Assembly (NCBI GenBank): GCA_017617545.1
Contig: JAFZVZ010000026.1
Coordinates: forward strand, 62,001-126,000
Source: Lachnospiraceae bacterium
GTDB taxonomy: Bacteria; Bacillota; Clostridia; Lachnospirales; Lachnospiraceae
DNA: 64,000 nt
Direction of reading: 5' to 3'
This document shows positions 29,049 through 38,550 of the stretch, piece after piece. The translations under genes and the position numbers were made by a program. Position 1 is the first letter of the stretch. The number at the start of each line of letters is the position of its first letter. The notes under the pieces are model-generated. The model saw only the letters and a list, made by a program, of their open reading frames with translations, ran no database searches and was not told where the DNA came from.

Positions 29049-31748
29049 TCACCTCGTCGCGTACCGGTAATCGATCGTGTAATTGTCCGTCACGTTGCGG
29101 CCGTTCTCGTCCAGAACCTGCACATAAACGGTGCGCTGTCCCATACTTCCGATCTCCACGGCAACCCCGTGGTCCCACTCATCCTCCTCCGTCAGCACGC
29201 GAAGCGTGTGCCCGTCCGCGAGGGTACCGCTTGTAATGCTCCAACGGACACTGTTCGGATTTCCGTCCGAATCCGCGTATATCATCAGGTTCAGCATACG
29301 CGAAGTGATGATGATGCGGGGGTCGTTCACACTGATCGAGTACAGGTATGTCACATCCTTACCGTTGGCGTCGATCACCTTGATCGGTATGACGGAATTC
29401 TGCGTGAAGATATATTCTCCCACGTTCTTGTACAACTCGTACCCGCTCAGCGTGTAGCTCGGTCCCACAATGGTATCGCCCTCCCGCAGCTGACCGTACG
29501 TCTGATGCCAGTTGAACGTGAACTCGTAGTCCGGATACGTGCCGTCATACTCTCTTGACAGCACATCGTACGAGATCAGCAGGTACAGGTCGTTGTAATC
29601 CCAGTTAAAGATGTCTCCGCCCTGGATCAGTCCGTTGCCGACACCAAGACCGCTGTCGGATCCGGTAACCTCAACAGGAACCCACCCGGTACCGCCGAGG
29701 TATACCTCAACCCATGCGTGTCCGCGGTTCGCCGTCACGGAAGTCCACTGTCCGGGTCTTCCCTGCTGCACGAGTCCGACGCAAAATCTTGACGGTATTC
29801 CGTAGGCGCGGTACATCATCGCCGCCGCAGCCGCGTAATGCTGGCAGATACCCTGCTTGCTCTCCGTCAGGAAATACAGGACCATGTCCTTATCATCCGG
29901 AAAATCAGGGAATTCCATAGTGTAGGAAGCCGCATTCTGGATGTAGCGGGCAATGTCGCCGACCAGAGTGTACGTGTCACTGTACGAGGAGATTCCTCCC
30001 TCCGCGCCGAGCGCAAGAAGCGCGTCGCGCAGATCGTCCGATATGTACGTGTAATTCGCGTAGACAAACTCCCGGTACTGCTCCTCGCGCTCACTGCTCG
30101 AGTATACGTACCAGTCGTAGGCTCCGGGAACATAGGTCTCGCAGGTATACTTATTGTCCGTATCACTCACCGAGGGATCCATCGTCATAAAATACGGATA
30201 GACCAAATGCTTCAGCTTCAGATCCTTAATGACAACCGCGTCACGGCTGTATCCGCTTTCCTTCAGGTTGTTGCCGGTGATATATTCACTCCACGGCTTG
30301 AATTCTTCCTCGCCCTCGATCTTGTACCAGGAATGACCGTCATAGTAGCCGTAGGAAAATTCTTTGAAATAGTAATCGCGGTCGCTTTGTCCGTAGAAGG
30401 AAAACACGATCGGCGGTTCCATGTTTGCTCCGGGTCCGAAGCCGTTGCTCTTGAACTCGAATCCGTTCTTGCTCAGGTCAAAGCCGTCCTCTTCAGCGGA
30501 ATCGATCTCTCCGGTAAATCCCTTGCCGTCACCCCTCTGCTGACCTTTTCCGTCCTTACCCTTACCGTCTTTATCGTCCTTGTTACCGGTAACCGTGAGC
30601 GTGCCTGTCTTCCTGACGACGCTGTAGTAATTGCTGACATCGCCGTACTTGTCGTTGACAATCTTAACAACGGCGATCGTATTCGCTGCCGTGCCGGGAT
30701 AGATCAGATATCCATCGCAGCGCACCTCAATGCTGTCGCCGTTCGCAAGGCCGTCTCCGTCTACCGTGTATTCGTCACAGGTCAGCATTGTGCCGTCGTA
30801 CGGCTTGCTCGCCGATCCGCTGGTGACGATGATCGACCGTCTCTCTACACTCAGATTACCGTCGTTATAAATGATACGGTACTGATCCGTAACATCGTTG
30901 CCGTCCTCATCCGTGATGCAGCTTCGCTCCGGATCGATATGGTTTACGGCATACAGACTTCCGACGCCCGCAAAATTCTCGTATACGCAATGGAATTCCG
31001 CCGTGTGTCCGGGTTTCAGTTCCCCTGCGGTGATCTTCCATTTGTCACAGTGAAGGAACTCAAACGGATCCCCGTTGTACTTCAGCGTCTGGCTCTCCGC
31101 CTCCACCGTGATGATCGTACGGGTATCCGTGATCTCACCGTACTTCTTCGGAAGCTTGTAGCAATCCGTCGCGTCCGTGCCGTCCTCATGCTCGATGGTG
31201 ACTTCTCCCACGCAATACCGGACAGTCTTGAGAACACCGCCCTTATCGCGGTCGGGATACTCGATCGTGCTGCCCGTAACGCGGTCGCCGTAGACGAGAC
31301 CGCCGATGGAATAATTTTCCTCAGAGATAATGACTCTCTCCGGGTCTTTAGCGGCCTCATAATCCGGGAGCCACAGTTCGAGCTCCTTCGGCAGGATTTC
31401 AAACTCCGTGCTGTCGCTGTCCTTCTCAAAACCCAAAATGGAAACGGAATGGGCGCGCACCTCATACCTGCCCGGCAGGCGGGGCACTTCCTCGCTCCAC
31501 TTTGAATCCTTGTCATCGGCAAGGCGGTATTCATATGTCGTCTCCGCGATCGCGGAAAATCCCGACGACGGCTTCGGTGTCTCCCCGTAGTACACCGACT
31601 CGCAACTCAGGTCGCGGTACCGGAAGCCCACACCGAAGACAAACACCAGGATTGGGATCATCAGAGCGATCACGATCAGGGCGATCTTCTTCGTCCTCCT
31701 CAGCACCTGCGCTAAGTGTGTCATCTTTTTTTCGTATTGTTCGTACAT
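29049..31748 (-). CDS. membrane-anchored transglutaminase-like protein with YDG repeats
   Basis: 899 aa from ATG 31748 (AGGAGG 6 nt upstream). An N-terminal membrane anchor (IALIVIALMIPILVFVFGV, residues ~22-42) precedes a large extracytoplasmic part. Ig-like YDG units occupy roughly residues 170-390 (TLKYNGDPFEF, SASKPYDGTMLTCD), followed by a Lys/Gly/Asp-rich linker. The transglutaminase core has GICQHYAAAAAMMYRAYGIP (nucleophile Cys near 634), the His motif NRGHAWVEVYLGG, and WVPVEVTG where Asp is usual, so Glu may be the third member. Another Ig-like unit closes the protein. It could act as a protease, amidase or crosslinker at the cell surface. Last gene of the six-gene AAA operon. Confidence 0.88.
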   Translation of the reverse strand: MYEQYEKKMTHLAQVLRRTKKIALIVIALMIPILVFVFGVGFRYRDLSCESVYYGETPKPSSGFSAIAETTYEYRLADDKDSKWSEEVPRLPGRYEVRAHSVSILGFEKDSDSTEFEILPKELELWLPDYEAAKDPERVIISEENYSIGGLVYGDRVTGSTIEYPDRDKGGVLKTVRYCVGEVTIEHEDGTDATDCYKLPKKYGEITDTRTIITVEAESQTLKYNGDPFEFLHCDKWKITAGELKPGHTAEFHCVYENFAGVGSLYAVNHIDPERSCITDEDGNDVTDQYRIIYNDGNLSVERRSIIVTSGSASKPYDGTMLTCDEYTVDGDGLANGDSIEVRCDGYLIYPGTAANTIAVVKIVNDKYGDVSNYYSVVRKTGTLTVTGNKDDKDGKGKDGKGQQRGDGKGFTGEIDSAEEDGFDLSKNGFEFKSNGFGPGANMEPPIVFSFYGQSDRDYYFKEFSYGYYDGHSWYKIEGEEEFKPWSEYITGNNLKESGYSRDAVVIKDLKLKHLVYPYFMTMDPSVSDTDNKYTCETYVPGAYDWYVYSSSEREEQYREFVYANYTYISDDLRDALLALGAEGGISSYSDTYTLVGDIARYIQNAASYTMEFPDFPDDKDMVLYFLTESKQGICQHYAAAAAMMYRAYGIPSRFCVGLVQQGRPGQWTSVTANRGHAWVEVYLGGTGWVPVEVTGSDSGLGVGNGLIQGGDIFNWDYNDLYLLISYDVLSREYDGTYPDYEFTFNWHQTYGQLREGDTIVGPSYTLSGYELYKNVGEYIFTQNSVIPIKVIDANGKDVTYLYSISVNDPRIIITSRMLNLMIYADSDGNPNSVRWSITSGTLADGHTLRVLTEEDEWDHGVAVEIGSMGQRTVYVQVLDENGRNVTDNYTIDYRYATR

Positions 31749-31803
31749 TCCGAACCTCCTGTGCGGCGTTCGCACAAAAAACTTCTCCCCGTTTTGAAAA
31801 ATG

Positions 31804-32934
31804 TTACTCTGTCAGTACGTACACGCCGGTCTGACAGTAGATCGCGTAACAGTCGGAAATATCCCAGTAGTTCTGGTTGCGCAGTGTATAACTGTACACC
31901 GTATTATCGTATGTTCCCGGATCGTAATAACCCGAAAGCTGCTGCATGGTGAGCACTTCGAGCGTGTCGCCCGGGAGAAGTTCGCCGGCGACCAGTTCCC
32001 AGTCATTCTTGATGACCGTGTCATAGTACGGCCGCACAACATCCTTTGTACGGACGACGAGCTTGCGCGGCGTCACCGTCAGAAGTCCAAGTTCGTAATC
32101 GATCTTGTACAGATCCGTGATATTGGTTCCGGCGGCGTCATAGATCTCAAACCGGATCGTATTGTTGCTGATGCCTGCCAGGGTAAGGCTTCCCGTCACC
32201 GTCACCTCTGTCCGGTGTCCGGGGTTGATGCTGCCGGACTTGATATCATACCTCAGGTTCGTGAGCGGCGTCCCGTCATACTCCTTGCTGTCTGAGGCTG
32301 TCGTGACAACCAGCTGCCCGTACATGACGAGCAGTTCCCCGGGTTCGCAGGAGACATCGTAATTGTCGGTGATCTCCTCCCCGTACGCGTCCATGATGCG
32401 CACGCGGAAGGTGTTGAGGTGTTTACCCGGTTCCGTCGGATCCGCAAAATCGTATGCCTCAAAGGTCTCTCCCGAGGACAGGTGCCCTCCCGACAGATTG
32501 ACGGTCTCCACGACAAGCGGCGTCCCGTTGTATACCTTCCAGCCGGATTCGCTCGTAAACGTCAGCTTCCTCCGGAGGATCTCCAACGTACCGTATTTCA
32601 TCTCAATGTCGTACTGGTCGGTGACATCCTTTCCCGCGCTGTCGCGAACGATAACCTTCGCGATGTTCTCACTCGTGCCGACAACCGTCTGCTGTCCCTT
32701 CACCTCAACCGTCAGCTCATGCTCCTTCGACACCTCTCCGGAGAGTATGTGCCATACCTTGCTCTCCAGCGGGTTGCCGTCGTACGTCTTGCTCGCCGAA
32801 CCGGTCTGGATCACCAGCTTCGTCTTGCGATAGCGGAAGCTGCCCGACGCGACAAGGAGGGTCATCAACACCAACCCGACCGTCAGCGCGACGGCGCACG
32901 CTCCGACTGTAAAAACTGAAATGTGTTTCTTCAT
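31804..32934 (-). CDS. membrane-anchored protein of four tandem YDG-type Ig-like repeats
   Basis: 376 aa. A hydrophobic helix (FTVGACAVALTVGLVLMTLL, residues ~8-28) is followed by four repeats of about 80-85 residues, beginning near residues 38 (TGSASKTYDGNPLES), 122 (SESGWKVYNGTPLVV), 208 (ASDSKEYDGTPLTN) and 290 (TKDVVRPYYDTVIK). Each ends with a D-x-x-G-x-x-(I/V)-T-D-x-Y block such as SAGKDVTDQYDIEMKYG. The fourth is the most diverged. No catalytic domain: a surface adhesin or scaffold is the natural reading. The neighbouring transglutaminase protein carries the same repeat type, so the two were probably built from one module. Confidence 0.85.
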   Translation of the reverse strand: MKKHISVFTVGACAVALTVGLVLMTLLVASGSFRYRKTKLVIQTGSASKTYDGNPLESKVWHILSGEVSKEHELTVEVKGQQTVVGTSENIAKVIVRDSAGKDVTDQYDIEMKYGTLEILRRKLTFTSESGWKVYNGTPLVVETVNLSGGHLSSGETFEAYDFADPTEPGKHLNTFRVRIMDAYGEEITDNYDVSCEPGELLVMYGQLVVTTASDSKEYDGTPLTNLRYDIKSGSINPGHRTEVTVTGSLTLAGISNNTIRFEIYDAAGTNITDLYKIDYELGLLTVTPRKLVVRTKDVVRPYYDTVIKNDWELVAGELLPGDTLEVLTMQQLSGYYDPGTYDNTVYSYTLRNQNYWDISDCYAIYCQTGVYVLTE

Positions 32935-33000
32935 CGTTTCCGTAACCTTACTCTTCTGTCTTCGGCATCCGCTGCGGATGCCGCCGTTCGAACTCCCACA

Positions 33001-34368
33001 CTATACCGACTGACACAGGTAATCCAGATAACTGCGGCACAGAGGCATCGCTTCCGCGCCGAACAGTTCCGCCAGCTTGATCAAAAGCGCCTTGCTTGCT
33101 TTCGCGATGACGACGGGGTTCTGGCCCTCCAGCTTGCGGAGCACCTTCTTCACCAGGAAATCGTCAAGCGCGTCCTCCTCGGTCCCGCCGCACGCGATGT
33201 AGACGGATACATACTCCTCCATCTGTTTGCGGATACGGTTGCCGTAGGTGATGTGATAGCTTTCCATGAGGAAGCGGTCGATCTCCTGCACCTTGCGGCG
33301 GTTTCTCGCGGTCATCGCGTACGAGCGCTTTGCCCAGTCCACCATCGTGCAGAAATCGTTGTACGACAGTCTCATTCCGTTCGACGCGTGCGCCGTGAAC
33401 GGCTTTGCCTTGCGGTCGAGGTTCATGACCATCGCGCGGTCGTAAACCTTGTCGGATATGGCAAATGTCGAGTCGTCGTTGTTGGCGGTTCCGATGAACC
33501 ACACGTTGACAGGAATGCGGAACCGGCCTTCCTCAAACAGCGCCGGATCGTGCTCCCAGCTGTCCGAGGTCATCTCGAGATACCGGTCGCTCGGATTGAG
33601 CTCCATCAGTGAAAGGAAATCCGCGAAGAAATACTCCACGCGAGCGATGTTCATCTCGTCGAGCACGATGATGCATATGTCGTCCGAGTACCGCGCCTCA
33701 TACAGCTTCTTCAGAAGCGCGCTCTCGTTGAACTGCTTGGTAAACTCGTTGAAGTACCCGATGACATCGGCGCGCTCCTTCCACATCGGCTGTACGGAGA
33801 TGACCGACGAAGCGTTTCCGAGATATGCTCCGAACGCCGTTGCCAGCGATGTCTTGCCCGTGCCGGACAGACCCTGCATGATCATCAGGTTTGATACGGA
33901 AAATCCAGCCAGGAACCGGCGGATGTCCTCCACCTCGTAATACAGTTTCAGGTTGGTCGCCGCGTAAGCGCGGAAATCCTCGCACACGGTTACGAGCGGA
34001 ACGATCCCCGCCTTTGCCTCCGGAACCGACGTGAGCATCTGCTTGTCGATCGATCCGAGAGCGCGGAACCGGACTCCGTCCGTTCCTTTCCTCTTTGACC
34101 GCTTCTTCCCCCTCCACAGGAAACCCCTGCCGGAAGAGATGATCACAAGCGTCATCACCAGGAGGATCGCCGGAAGCAGCAACGCCATGATAACGGTGAT
34201 GTAAACCGTCTCCGAATGAAGCAGCGTGCCGTCACTGAAGAGATCCGTCATCCTTCCCGCTTTGCCGCCGGCTATCGCAATGATGATCAGCACAACGCAG
34301 GCCAGCGCGACGATCCCGCAGATGCGGAACCACCGGAACCAGACATTTGTGTTGTCCCGTTCTTCCAT
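33001..34368 (-). CDS. membrane-anchored McrB/MoxR-like AAA ATPase (copy 1)
   Basis: 455 aa. Two N-terminal membrane helices (~12-34 and ~52-75), a basic linker, then an AAA_5-type ATPase: Walker A MQGLSGTGKTSLATAFGAYL (~165-184), an insertion with VISVQPMWKERADVIGYFNE, Walker B CIIVLDEMNIARVEYFFADF, and sensor 1 IGTANNDDSTFAISDKVYDRA. The C-terminal helical lid ends with LFGAEAMPLCRSYLDYL. The insertion and sensor wording are those of McrB-like ATPases rather than housekeeping proteases. It starts 3 bp after the DUF2357-like gene. Very similar to the AAA at 35988-37409. Confidence 0.9.
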   Translation of the reverse strand: MEERDNTNVWFRWFRICGIVALACVVLIIIAIAGGKAGRMTDLFSDGTLLHSETVYITVIMALLLPAILLVMTLVIISSGRGFLWRGKKRSKRKGTDGVRFRALGSIDKQMLTSVPEAKAGIVPLVTVCEDFRAYAATNLKLYYEVEDIRRFLAGFSVSNLMIMQGLSGTGKTSLATAFGAYLGNASSVISVQPMWKERADVIGYFNEFTKQFNESALLKKLYEARYSDDICIIVLDEMNIARVEYFFADFLSLMELNPSDRYLEMTSDSWEHDPALFEEGRFRIPVNVWFIGTANNDDSTFAISDKVYDRAMVMNLDRKAKPFTAHASNGMRLSYNDFCTMVDWAKRSYAMTARNRRKVQEIDRFLMESYHITYGNRIRKQMEEYVSVYIACGGTEEDALDDFLVKKVLRKLEGQNPVVIAKASKALLIKLAELFGAEAMPLCRSYLDYLCQSV

Positions 34369-34371
34369 AGG

Positions 34372-35937
34372 TTAGTCCTTCTTTCTCCACAGGATCTTCC
34401 TGCGGATCTTTCGTTTTGCAACGCCCCAGTTGCGCTCAAAGTAGCGGTCAAACGCATCCTTCTCGCGCTCGAGCTCGAGGAACCGCTCCTTCTCCGTCAT
34501 ATCCTCCGGATTCGCGATCCCCAGTTTCTCCATGAGACCGATGATCCGCGCCTCCTGCAGGGCAATATTTTCCTTCTGCGCCTCGATCTCGCCCTTCAGG
34601 CGGTTGATCTCGTTCTGAAGTCCCTCGGCGTATTCGGCGCTCTGCTTCCGCTCCGTCGACATCTGCGTGCGGAGCGTCGTCATATCCGCGCGGAACCGCT
34701 CGATCCCATCCTGAAGTCTGTCCGCCCGCTCTCCGGCGTTCGCCGCGCCGATGCGGATTGCCTCCGCCTCCGAGCGAAGCGCCTCGCACTGCGCCTCCGT
34801 CTGCTCTCTGCGCCCGACCTCCGCGAGGATCAGCTGACGGTACTCCTCCGGCGTGATCTCATCGCCGTTCTCCGACCGCTGCAATATCTCCTGAAGTCTT
34901 TGTTCGAAAAATGCTCTCTCCACCGCCGCGCGGCGCTCTTCCTCCTCGCGGTACCGGCCGGCCAGCTCCTCCGCGAGGTTACGGCCGTATTTGGCGTTTA
35001 AGTAGCTTAAGAACATCACCGTCTCGGTGATCTCATGTTCCATCTCCGGCGGGAACGGGGAGAACGAATTCTCGTGCCGCTCTGCCGTAAACCCGTCGCC
35101 CGTGTAGCCGCTCAGGTAATCGTACAGGGCCACGACCTCGCGGAAATGCGTGTCCATTCGAAGGATGTTCGTCCGCGTGATCGGCGGCGTGACCATCGGC
35201 GCCAGCGCCACATTTTTCATAAGCGGCATATCCAGCAATACAGCCACCTGCGCCGCGATCGCCTCGATCCTCACGAGCTTGGCGGCATTTTTCTTCTCCA
35301 CATCCGCCAGTCCGTCGGTGCCGTCGCTGAAGCGCACCTCCACGGTGATCGGACCGCCCTCCGTGCGCATCTCCTTGCGGAACTCCGTCTCGGAGCTTGA
35401 CTCCTTCCACGCCTGCGCGATCTTGTAATAGCGGTAATCCACAAAATCTCTCGTGTAGCACAGAACCATGTACAGCACACGGTTTTCGTACACGGCGAAA
35501 TTGCTCTCGTTCTCATACACCTTCAGCCGGTCGGGGATCAGATCCTCGCCCTCGTCCGGGACATGCGTGATCATCTCGCTGTGGCGGGACAGATGCTCCA
35601 CGGATGCGCGGGACACCTTGCGCACGCGCTCGATCGGCGTGACATTGCCCTCCACCTTGATGAACTGACGGTCCTCGCGGATCGCCGCCTCAAGGTGCGG
35701 CAGCGCAACCTCGATGCGCTCGATCCAGTCCTCCTCGATCGTCACGTCATAGTAGACCGAGGACAGTTTTTCCGTTTCCAAACCGGTATGCGCGATCAGA
35801 TCCCGCAACTTGCGCTCCTCGGGGCCGACCTGCGGCGCAACCGCGCCCATCTCTCCCGGTCCCCCGGGCTGCAGCCCGAGCTGCTCGGCAAATCGTTTCG
35901 CCGCCCGGTAATACCGATCCATTATGTCTTGACTCAT
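34372..35937 (-). CDS. DUF2357-like coiled-coil protein
   Basis: 521 aa, soluble, no signal peptide or membrane segment. Residues ~60-330 resemble DUF2357, the module that partners McrB-like ATPases; the clearest piece is VYENESNFAVYENRVLYMVL, with VSRASVEHLSRHSE before it. Residues ~330-480 form a long charged coiled coil. The tail is basic (WGVAKRKIRRKILWRKKD). I cannot find an obvious PD-(D/E)XK nuclease signature. Lying between two AAA genes (50 and 3 bp gaps), it is the likely adaptor or effector of the ATPases. GGAG precedes ATG 35937. Family assignment is by motif only. Confidence 0.6.
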   Translation of the reverse strand: MSQDIMDRYYRAAKRFAEQLGLQPGGPGEMGAVAPQVGPEERKLRDLIAHTGLETEKLSSVYYDVTIEEDWIERIEVALPHLEAAIREDRQFIKVEGNVTPIERVRKVSRASVEHLSRHSEMITHVPDEGEDLIPDRLKVYENESNFAVYENRVLYMVLCYTRDFVDYRYYKIAQAWKESSSETEFRKEMRTEGGPITVEVRFSDGTDGLADVEKKNAAKLVRIEAIAAQVAVLLDMPLMKNVALAPMVTPPITRTNILRMDTHFREVVALYDYLSGYTGDGFTAERHENSFSPFPPEMEHEITETVMFLSYLNAKYGRNLAEELAGRYREEEERRAAVERAFFEQRLQEILQRSENGDEITPEEYRQLILAEVGRREQTEAQCEALRSEAEAIRIGAANAGERADRLQDGIERFRADMTTLRTQMSTERKQSAEYAEGLQNEINRLKGEIEAQKENIALQEARIIGLMEKLGIANPEDMTEKERFLELEREKDAFDRYFERNWGVAKRKIRRKILWRKKD

Positions 35938-35987
35938 GGTCGTTTCTCCTATGTTTCCTGCGCGTCCGCGCTCATCTCCCGCTCAGC

Positions 35988-37409
35988 TTACGAAGCGTTT
36001 CTGCGCAGACGGTCCAGACTGTCACGGCAGAGTGGCATGTTCGCCAGCCCGAAGGTCGTCTCGAATACATTCTCAAGCGCATCCATCGAGTACCGGATCA
36101 GGACAGGGCTGATGCTGTCGAGCTTGCGGAGGACCTTCTTCGCGAGCATATCGTCGACCGCCTCGGTCTCCGTTCCGCCGCACGCGATGTACACGGGGAT
36201 GTACTCCTCCATCTGCCGGCGGATACGGTTGCCGTACGTGACACGGAACCGGTCGGTCAGGAACTCGTCGATCTTCTGGATCTTCGCGATCGCGTCCTCG
36301 GAAAGGCTGTACGCCTGCTTGGCCTCGTTCACGATCTTCGTAAAATGAGTGAACGAGATCCGGTCACCCGCATTGTACACGGGCTCGAAGATATCCGCCT
36401 TGCGGTCGAGGTTCATGACCATGGCGCGGTCGTACACCTTGTCGGAGATGGCAAACGTCGAGTCGTCGTTGTTCGCCGTGCCGATGAACCACACATTTTC
36501 CGGAATACGGAGCATGCCTCGCTCGAGAAGCTGCGGGTCGTCCTCCCACGTGTCGGACACGACCTCGAGGTAGCGGTTTGCGGGGCTCAGCTCCATCTGG
36601 GAAAGGAAGTCCGCGAAATAATACTCGACGCGCGCGATGTTCATCTCATCGAGCACGATCACGTACATCTCGTCGGTGTAGCGCGCCTCGTACAGTTTCT
36701 TGAGAAGCGTTCCCTCGCTGAAGCGCTTCGTGAACTCGTTGAAGTAACCGACGATATCCGAGCGCTCCTTCCACATCGGCTGCACGGAGATGACCGTCGA
36801 AGGGTTCTGCAGATAGTTGCCGAACGCCGTCGCCATCGAGGTCTTACCGGTACCGGAGAGACCCTGCATGACCAGAAGGTGGGAAACGCCGATGCCGGCG
36901 ATGAATTTGCGGATGTCCTCCTCGCTGTAGAACAGGCCGAGCCGGGACGCCGCGTAATTGCGGAAGTTGCGGCAGATCTCCGTCAGCGTGATCTCGTCAT
37001 CATGCTTCGGCGGAACGTAGCGAAGCGCCGCGCGGTCGTACTGGACAAGCGTGTGGAAGCGGGACGTGATCTCCTCATCCTCCGAGATCTCAAGCTGTCC
37101 GGCCGGTTCCTCCTTCTTGAGGTTGCCCATAAGGCCTGCTCCCTCGCCCCCGGCCGCGGCTCCTTCGGCAGCGCCCTCGGCGCCGTTCTCCGCGCCGGCT
37201 TCACCGTCGGTGCCGTCCTTCTGCTTTCCTCTCCTGCCTCTCTTGCCTGCAGGCTTCTTCTCCGTCGTCATGTACAGCACCGCGATGATCATCACCGCAA
37301 TGCAGGAAAATAACAATACAAAGTATGCGATCAGTGCAACCTTTGAGGAAAGGATGCTCCAGAGCGCTTCAAAAAGTGTTCCGAAAATAAGGCTGTGTAT
37401 CGGATTCAT
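35988..37409 (-). CDS. membrane-anchored McrB/MoxR-like AAA ATPase (copy 2)
   Basis: 473 aa. N-terminal membrane region (KVALIAYFVLLFSCIAVMII, ~23-45), a basic patch (GKRGRRGKQK) and a low-complexity Gly/Ala/Glu linker (~65-95), then the ATPase. Walker A is MQGLSGTGKTSMATAFGNYL near residue 185, Walker B VIVLDEMNIARVEYYFADFL, sensor FIGTANNDDSTFAISDKVYD, lid GNRIRRQMEEYIPVYIACGG. The end FGLANMPLCRDSLDRLRRN matches copy 1. The paralogues differ mainly in the membrane and linker parts, consistent with tandem duplication and possible hetero-hexamer formation. GGAGGAG precedes ATG 37409. Confidence 0.9.
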   Translation of the reverse strand: MNPIHSLIFGTLFEALWSILSSKVALIAYFVLLFSCIAVMIIAVLYMTTEKKPAGKRGRRGKQKDGTDGEAGAENGAEGAAEGAAAGGEGAGLMGNLKKEEPAGQLEISEDEEITSRFHTLVQYDRAALRYVPPKHDDEITLTEICRNFRNYAASRLGLFYSEEDIRKFIAGIGVSHLLVMQGLSGTGKTSMATAFGNYLQNPSTVISVQPMWKERSDIVGYFNEFTKRFSEGTLLKKLYEARYTDEMYVIVLDEMNIARVEYYFADFLSQMELSPANRYLEVVSDTWEDDPQLLERGMLRIPENVWFIGTANNDDSTFAISDKVYDRAMVMNLDRKADIFEPVYNAGDRISFTHFTKIVNEAKQAYSLSEDAIAKIQKIDEFLTDRFRVTYGNRIRRQMEEYIPVYIACGGTETEAVDDMLAKKVLRKLDSISPVLIRYSMDALENVFETTFGLANMPLCRDSLDRLRRNAS

Positions 37410-37423
37410 GTTCTCCTCCCGTG

Positions 37424-38482
37424 TCAGATCGTGTTGGTTTGCAGATACCTGCGGCTCAGCGGCAGTTCCCTGTTTCCGAACAGGTCGCCGAACACTGCGG
37501 CGGCTCTGCGGATCGCGCCGGCGCCGTCATTTCGGCAGATGCCCGGCAGCAGCACGCTGCTCAGGGCCCGGTCAAACGCTTCCTCGCGGCTTGTGCCGGT
37601 GGCGATCAGGCAGGCCGACAGGCTCTCCATGCTGCGGATGATCCGGTTCCGGACACCCGGCAGCCAGTCGCACGCGCACCTTGTGAGAAGTTCGTCCGCC
37701 TTGCGCCAGTCCTCCTCGGGAAGGAAGTTCTCCTCCTCCGTCTCCCGGAGAATGCCCCGGAAGGTATCTCCCCCGATGCCTAAGTACGGTCGTCCCTTCG
37801 CCGCGTCCGCCCAGTACGCTTCCACCTTCGTGCGCATGTGCTCCGGCACGGTGTCGTCCGCCACGGAAAATGCAGCGAACTCATCCGGTGCCGCCGGAAT
37901 CTGTTCTCCGAAAAATGATGACAACAGCCGCACAAGCGCGGTCAGAACAACATCCTGTGTGCCGGACACGCCCTCAAGCTTCACGCAGCCCGTCGCCGCG
38001 TACGCCGCGAGGATATGTCCGATCCCGCCGGTGTCGACGAGCACGCCGCACGACTCGAGATACCTTCGGATCCGCTCCGCGAGCATCGGCATGGTCTCAC
38101 CGGGGATCTCAACGGCATTGCGCCCCTGCGCCGGCATCACCGAGGAGAGCAACACTCCGGAGGTACCCGCCTGCGCGACATTTGGACGCACGCCGAAAGA
38201 CGCCGCAGGCAAAGACGCCCGCGCCGTAAGATAGGCACGATTTTGAAGTTCCTGATTTTTCTTCCTTCTGGAAATCAAACGAGTGACAAGGATCACGATC
38301 CCTGCCACGAGAACCGCGGTGACAATACCGCACAGAATGTATAGAAACGCCCACGAACCGGACGTCGACGCGGCCTCCTCCGTCTTCTCAACCGCAACCT
38401 CCGTCTGATCCGGGTACGAAAAATAGTCCGAGTAATCTGAAAACGCATCGGAATACAGGAACCAGCTTCTCACTATGTTCAT
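37424..38482 (-). CDS. degenerate, P-loop-less paralogue of the membrane AAA ATPases
   Basis: 352 aa from ATG 38482 (purine-rich GGGGGATGATG just upstream). One membrane helix (AFLYILCGIVTAVLVAGIVI) precedes a cytoplasmic part that aligns by eye with the two neighbouring AAA proteins. RIRRYLESCGVL corresponds to DIRRFLAGFSVS. EGVSGTQDVVLTALVRLL corresponds to QGLSGTGKTSLATAFGAYL, so the Walker A Gly-Lys-Thr has become Gln-Asp-Val. RNRIIRSMESLSACLIATG matches the lid, and FGNRELPLSRRYLQ matches the shared C-terminus. Walker B and the sensor are missing. Probably a non-hydrolysing regulatory or structural subunit. First gene of the operon; the next begins 14 bp later. Confidence 0.75.
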   Translation of the reverse strand: MNIVRSWFLYSDAFSDYSDYFSYPDQTEVAVEKTEEAASTSGSWAFLYILCGIVTAVLVAGIVILVTRLISRRKKNQELQNRAYLTARASLPAASFGVRPNVAQAGTSGVLLSSVMPAQGRNAVEIPGETMPMLAERIRRYLESCGVLVDTGGIGHILAAYAATGCVKLEGVSGTQDVVLTALVRLLSSFFGEQIPAAPDEFAAFSVADDTVPEHMRTKVEAYWADAAKGRPYLGIGGDTFRGILRETEEENFLPEEDWRKADELLTRCACDWLPGVRNRIIRSMESLSACLIATGTSREEAFDRALSSVLLPGICRNDGAGAIRRAAAVFGDLFGNRELPLSRRYLQTNTI

Positions 38483-38521
38483 TTCATCATCCCCCATGTG
38501 TCGTATAGCGACATCTGATTT

Positions 38522-38550
38522 ATTATAGCAGACGGTCAGAGAAAAAGCAA
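38522..38550 (-). promoter_or_regulatory. promoter of the AAA/YDG/transglutaminase operon
   Basis: Minus strand TTGCTT (38550-38545), 17 bp, perfect TATAAT (38527-38522), about 40 bp upstream of ATG 38482. The next five genes are spaced 3-66 bp with no terminator visible, so one transcript could cover 29.0-38.5 kb. Confidence 0.75.

Follow-up and report, generated by a model that had tools for sequence, protein, structure and literature searches.

A McrB-type gene cluster with predicted membrane anchors and with transglutaminase and YDG-repeat surface-type proteins in a Lachnospiraceae genome

We analysed a 64,000-nucleotide stretch of DNA from a Lachnospiraceae bacterium (assembly GCA_017617545.1, contig JAFZVZ010000026.1, positions 62,001 to 126,000; hereafter the window), which carries a cluster of six minus-strand genes, g1 to g6, spanning 29049-38497. 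The cluster encodes two McrB-type AAA proteins (g2 and g4), a third AAA paralogue lacking a P-loop (g1), a DUF2357-type partner (g3) and two anchored surface-type proteins (g5 and g6). The established role of McrBC is DNA restriction. We read the cluster as a predicted membrane-anchored relative of McrBC, with no recognizable nuclease, that likely hydrolyzes nucleoside triphosphates to grip the cytosolic tails of the neighboring YDG/transglutaminase surface proteins and so places, assembles or turns over these proteins; we put the probability of this reading at about one half. A DNA-defense engine has, in that case, likely been turned into a handler of envelope proteins, and a defense motor would have been reused for envelope biology.

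Conservation of the cluster

The sequence-only reading that preceded this analysis had treated the six genes as one unit, and a check of related genomes supports this. Of 21 other genomes in the genus of the window, 14 gave matches: 13 had two AAA genes and the remaining one had a lone match. Nothing matched in three genomes that are at least 96% complete. The order g2-g3-g4-g5-g6 was kept in 12 of the 14 same-genus loci, with g6 cut by a contig end in one of the 12. One of the other two loci is cut before g2. The last, L046, is the sole reordered locus of the 14 and carries its g2 copy downstream of g6; its AAA copies were labeled by position, so their labels are swapped in the tree described below.

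Beyond the genus, we scanned sets of 391 and 299 genomes, of which 31 and 32, respectively, matched at E 1e-20, weak McrB proteins included. The loci studied here are a sample, since of 198 confirmed stretches the best 80 were kept, and genes per locus were counted from a six-frame recount. The set leaves out strong matches in G161, G410 and G267:C2 from the 391-genome scan, as well as two weak matches (L054 and L055) with no AAA profile match. Three of the 11 weak-match-only genomes of the 299-genome scan, and none from the 391-genome scan, served as McrB controls. Removing duplicates from 100 loci of the two-AAA (dual) type left 85, window included. Named genomes contributed 79 loci, which by record title fall in Lachnospiraceae, Oscillospiraceae, other Clostridia, Anaeroplasma, Acholeplasmataceae, Haloplasma and other Bacilli. 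The arrangement AAA-DUF2357-AAA followed by YDG/transglutaminase genes was present in 59 of the 85 unique loci, most of the others being cut short, and a YDG or transglutaminase open reading frame (ORF) in 64; in L160 the YDG genes lie upstream. Absences are uncertain, as a contig end or the limit of the 10-kb flank truncates many loci. We conclude that the cluster forms a single conserved module in which McrB-type ATPases occur with a partner of DUF2357 type, with predicted membrane anchors and with proteins of surface type. This branch keeps the motor and the McrC-type partner, has no nuclease that our searches could detect and is accompanied by surface-type proteins that are anchored.

The operon occupies more than one genomic site within the genus. 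This would fit some mobility, as might be expected of an envelope-based anti-phage system in which a McrB-type ring detects infection and then sets off the surface proteins or damages the membrane. The McrB/DUF2357 ancestry points the same way, as does the PADLOC model PDC-M26A, which matches both AAA proteins (E 7e-43 and 2e-42). We nevertheless regard this explanation as very unlikely, given the conserved gene order and the housekeeping genes that flank all four loci checked (sigA, gltX and uvrD-like; ssb and rpsF; rpoA and rplQ; glmM/glmS-like). In addition, family searches and PADLOC matched no nuclease, methylase or toxin family among the six proteins.

The AAA proteins and their DUF2357-type partner

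Both g2 (35988..37409, minus strand) and g4 (33001..34368, minus strand) match the AAA_5 family (24.3 and 25.5 bits, cut-off 22), and a profile search of the PDB at E<=0.01 returned three McrB sequences exclusively, all of E. coli McrB (6hz4, 6ut6 and 7vsr; best E 2e-7). Besides its Walker A and B motifs, g2 shares with g4 the sensor sequence NNDDST. This is the NxD-plus-D form, which characterizes one branch of McrB proteins in the portion of Bell et al. 2024 (PMC11090510) that treats them, and NNDD can also be read as NxxD in an ungapped alignment to the PDB sequences. Among dual-type loci, NNDD was present in 61/61 upstream and 59/61 downstream copies (the other two unread), and Walker A and B were kept in all 122 copies. 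Loci with a single strong AAA gene, described below, had NNDD or NTDD in 32 of 33 cases (one unread), and the three weak McrB controls had NIDE at this position (two read by eye).

On these sequence features, g2 and g4 are better read as McrB-like than as MoxR-like. The sequence-only reading had named both families; the McrB half is upheld by the PDB relatives and the sensor motif, and the MoxR half is not. A MoxR operon is defined by a MoxR AAA protein with a DUF58/VWA partner. MoxR belongs to a different AAA branch, and no DUF58 or VWA match was found in the six window proteins. The likeness that remains is to MoxR-linked transglutaminase operons, in which AAA ATPase genes stand beside genes for transglutaminase and Ig-like surface proteins; the PFNA cluster of Bifidobacterium is an example, as far as the cited excerpt describes it (PMC8430577). 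A literature search on TgpA, MoxR and DUF58 had no TgpA paper among the matches listed. Because the MoxR theme is unsupported, so is the earlier idea that the cluster merges two themes.

The paired AAA cores are at least 98% identical to each other in 23 of 61 loci, and for those 23 loci the nearest copy from any other locus is 69-99% identical. The twin genes share 92.5-100% of their DNA sequence over 0.94-1.2 kb and diverge in their first 115-394 nt, outside the shared stretch. Some twin cores differ at synonymous positions; those of L143 have 68 mismatches, with a rounded protein identity of 100%. This pattern is what gene conversion would produce if selection favored interchangeable motors, and the near-identity of neighboring AAA genes offers a testable clue that both copies occupy one ring. 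This ~1 kb of near-identical DNA lies in the AAA genes flanking the DUF2357 gene (L125, L131, L143, L151 and 19 other loci), and such a direct repeat could delete the middle gene.

The third AAA protein, g1 (37424..38497, minus strand; its start may be 38482, as in the sequence-only reading), has one hydrophobic segment. Its earlier description as a P-loop-less AAA paralogue was confirmed with hhalign, in which seven g1 proteins matched the lid region of the AAA alignment (97.3%, E 1.7e-11). We took as g1 counterparts 40 ORFs of L097-L175 that match AAA weakly: none has Walker A or B, and 30 have a GH3-like region, which Pfam confirmed in 3/3 of the GH3-bearing ORFs scanned. In these 30 ORFs (for example, L140:5154-8510) the GH3-like region precedes the hydrophobic segments, and a two-segment hairpin would place it in the cytosol. 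BLAST recognizes g1 in 6 of the 14 same-genus loci, making it the least conserved gene.

Between the two McrB-type AAA genes lies g3 (34372..35937, minus strand), which we assign as a DUF2357-type (McrC-like) coiled-coil protein from a subthreshold match, BLAST relatives and an AlphaFold2 model. The earlier label DUF2357-like is borne out above cut-off in some relatives and below it in g3 itself, which scores 21.2 bits against PF09823 (cut-off 23.3). Its BLAST relative in L053 (29% identity over 225 residues) is a partner protein scoring 43.5 bits for DUF2357, the partner in the SipW-type locus L076 also scores above the cut-off, and a protein 93% identical to g3 bears a precomputed PF09823 assignment. 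The best named record in the scan of named genomes, an uncultured Lachnospiraceae metagenome-assembled genome, has a 93% identical g3. The model shows a long helix at residues 363-471 (109 residues), with a mean predicted local distance difference test score of 81.5.

Pfam gave no PD-(D/E)xK match in g3 or six of its relatives, and the partners of the McrB controls match PDDEXK_7 in 3/3 cases, two above and one below the cut-off. The cluster resembles the Type IV restriction system McrBC (E. coli McrB) in its AAA family and DUF2357-type partner, but differs in that no PD-(D/E)xK nuclease was found and in its hydrophobic N-terminal anchors. It shares with CoCoNuT systems, as sketched in part of PMC11090510, the NxD branch and a coiled coil in the McrC homologue, whereas no HEPN or other nuclease family scored above cut-off in the six window proteins.

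Surface-type proteins and a proposed action from inside the cell

Both g5 (31804..32934, minus strand) and g6 (29049..31775, minus strand) are anchored proteins with YDG-type repeats. The earlier view of g5 as a YDG-repeat protein stands in part: AgI_II_C2 matches above cut-off (31.0 bits, cut-off 27.1), and YDG itself reaches 21.0 bits against a cut-off of 25. The hydrophobic segment of g5 is at residues 10-28. As the earlier reading had it, g6 carries a transglutaminase core (residues 597-702; Transglut_core E 2.5e-20). Members of the transglutaminase-like superfamily use Cys-His-Asp as catalytic residues. In the g6 family C644, H686 and E702 are invariant (15/15), and the third acid of the triad is likely Glu702. 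The genome of the window holds six more transglutaminase-core loci, on contigs C31, C5, C15, C27, C11 and C23, which carry no match to the AAA query.

The likely start of g6 is the ATG at 31748, preceded by AGGAGG, and the first 20 residues from this start (31689..31748, minus strand) form a tail, predicted to be cytosolic, with a YxxY motif. The pattern xYxxY precedes the hydrophobic segment at the start of a g6-type protein in 62/64 loci; in each of the other two, a single surface gene was detected. Among controls, YxxY occurred in 5/135 SipW-linked anchored proteins and 33/325 other anchored ORFs.

Together, the tail, the motors and the outer domains suggest a machine that acts from inside the cell on its own surface proteins. 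In such a machine, g2 and g4, together with g1, would form one mixed ring at the inner face of the membrane, the differing membrane parts of g2 and g4 setting ring position and their interchangeable motor domains providing force. The DUF2357 protein would enter the ring as McrC does and switch hydrolysis on, and the ring would act on the g6 tail and perhaps also on g5. The YDG repeats and the transglutaminase domain would work outside the cell, where the latter perhaps cross-links or cleaves surface protein. The near-identical AAA cores within a locus, the P-loop-less and often GH3-fused third AAA and the predicted cytosolic YxxY tail are new here.

Anchored surface-type proteins whose tails are conserved and predicted to be cytosolic could also belong to a sensor. 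The extracellular YDG/transglutaminase proteins would then bind a ligand or the wall, and their tails would report to the AAA-DUF2357 complex inside, with the P-loop-less, often GH3-fused AAA subunit as a possible signaling arm. We think this unlikely: no regulator or kinase family matched among the six proteins in the family search, and mechanical work is suggested because the two motor copies are kept near-identical in many loci.

Several observations weigh against a machine that handles envelope proteins, which we still prefer. It is built on sequence comparison and on models of single proteins. The window's own AAA pair is 63% identical and so lacks near-identity; g3 is itself below the DUF2357 cut-off, three of four other scanned members of its type have no DUF2357 match, its family showed no significant hhalign match to one or two sets of McrC-type partners, and fold searches with two models returned nothing specific. 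The YxxY pattern was selected after inspection of the sequences, and the related PADLOC model is counted as a defense candidate. Finally, a transglutaminase match was present in 42 of the 64 YDG/transglutaminase-bearing loci and g1 is absent or unrecognized in many loci, so that neither the domain nor g1 has been demonstrated to be obligatory.

A bolder version, possible but doubtful in our judgment, is that McrBC was converted from DNA cutting to surface building and that the AAA machines so formed are a transmembrane class of their own. Their mixed ring would combine two active AAA proteins, kept alike by gene conversion, with the P-loop-less, often GH3-fused one and would have a nuclease-free McrC stalk as its switch. 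It would pull the YxxY tails of large YDG/transglutaminase proteins and so put up surface structures and cross-link them, also in relatives that lack a wall. Anaeroplasma, which has no cell wall, carries a full locus (L131), and peptidoglycan is therefore unlikely to be the sole substrate.

Sister loci and the layout of the window cluster

Loci with a single strong AAA gene form a second system. A SipW-type signal peptidase matched in 31 of 33 such loci, the exceptions being L085, which is cut by a contig end, and L075, which is divergent; none of the 33 had a YDG/transglutaminase match. The SipW profile, built from two proteins above the TIGR02228 cut-off (L052 and L053), matched in 0 of the 85 dual-type loci, many of which are short, and the window's genome has one subthreshold TIGR02228 match, outside the operon. 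A FastTree phylogeny, with three McrB proteins as the root, unites the 122 dual-type AAA proteins in a clade (support 0.983) whose neighbor is a group of 32 single-type AAA proteins (0.979). In place of two merged themes, then, the comparisons show two sister McrB-type systems, one SipW-linked and one YDG/transglutaminase-linked, which would make a natural comparison. TasA-like identity of the SipW-linked proteins was not demonstrated.

Both groups recall the CoCoPALM systems, which are barely described in the part of Bell et al. (2024, PMC11090510) that mentions them. There, the AAA protein has a McrB-like domain with an NxD motif, which E or D usually follows, and is fused to an FtsB-like transmembrane and coiled-coil part; the McrC homologue has a coiled coil, and signal peptidase family proteins are associated. 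The single-AAA, SipW-linked loci fit this sketch and form the clade nearest to the dual type. The window cluster shares the NxD-plus-D McrB-type AAA with a transmembrane segment (NNDD in both copies, and N-terminal hydrophobic segments by hydropathy) and the DUF2357-type coiled-coil partner, but it has a second AAA copy where the sketch has one, as well as YDG/transglutaminase surface-type proteins and a third AAA that is P-loop-less, and no signal peptidase was seen in it. Because the signal-peptidase feature is missing, we did not file the transglutaminase type under CoCoPALM; the separation follows the published sketch, and AAA sequences of this kind may be part of the published clade already.

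The cluster could still be a plain CoCoPALM pilus-assembly-linked system, whose surface proteins act as pilus-like subunits and are exported by way of the general signal peptidase. The SipW neighbors of the sister clade and the NxD motif speak for this, but we find it improbable in view of the lack of SipW matches in the 85 dual-type loci (many of them short), of the single subthreshold match in the window's genome and of the surface proteins themselves, which are large, carry YDG repeats and often have a transglutaminase domain. By title, the literature on CoCoPALM beyond Bell et al. was unrelated, nothing related was found on SipW/TasA with an AAA ATPase operon, and none of the matches listed for McrB with transglutaminase was relevant.

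Three single-AAA observations stand apart. L075 has a divergent AAA (358 bits) that falls outside both clades and a weak DUF2357 partner (30 bits), with no SipW or transglutaminase match. L069 has five SipW-profile matches in one locus. Several SipW-type operons in Lachnospiraceae begin with a gene that resembles HD-GYP by eye (L053:13624-14274 and the heads of the L076 and L078-L082 operons).

In the window, the ORF coordinates bear out the gene order and the 3-66 bp spacing given by the sequence-only reading: from g1 to g6 the intergenic distances are 14, 50, 3, 66 and 28 bp, the last becoming 55 bp with the g6 start at 31748. Its claim of N-terminal membrane anchors in all but the coiled-coil protein also agrees with a hydropathy scan, the basis of all transmembrane assignments here, which found N-terminal hydrophobic segments in five of the six proteins, g3 being the exception; g2 has one (residues 24-42) and g4 two (16-34 and 59-77). 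The scan for terminators listed none directly after g6. A plausible candidate promoter lies upstream of g1 (38522..38550, minus strand; TGCTATAAT). The extended -10 of this previously proposed element is perfect (TGC-TATAAT, with TATAAT at 38527-38522). Its -35, 17 nt away, is weak (TTGCTT at 38550-38545, 3/6 to consensus), and for this reason the promoter is missing from the consensus-scan list. The cluster is bordered on one side by a CBS-domain gene, which adjoins a sigma-70 gene, and on the other by divergent gltX.

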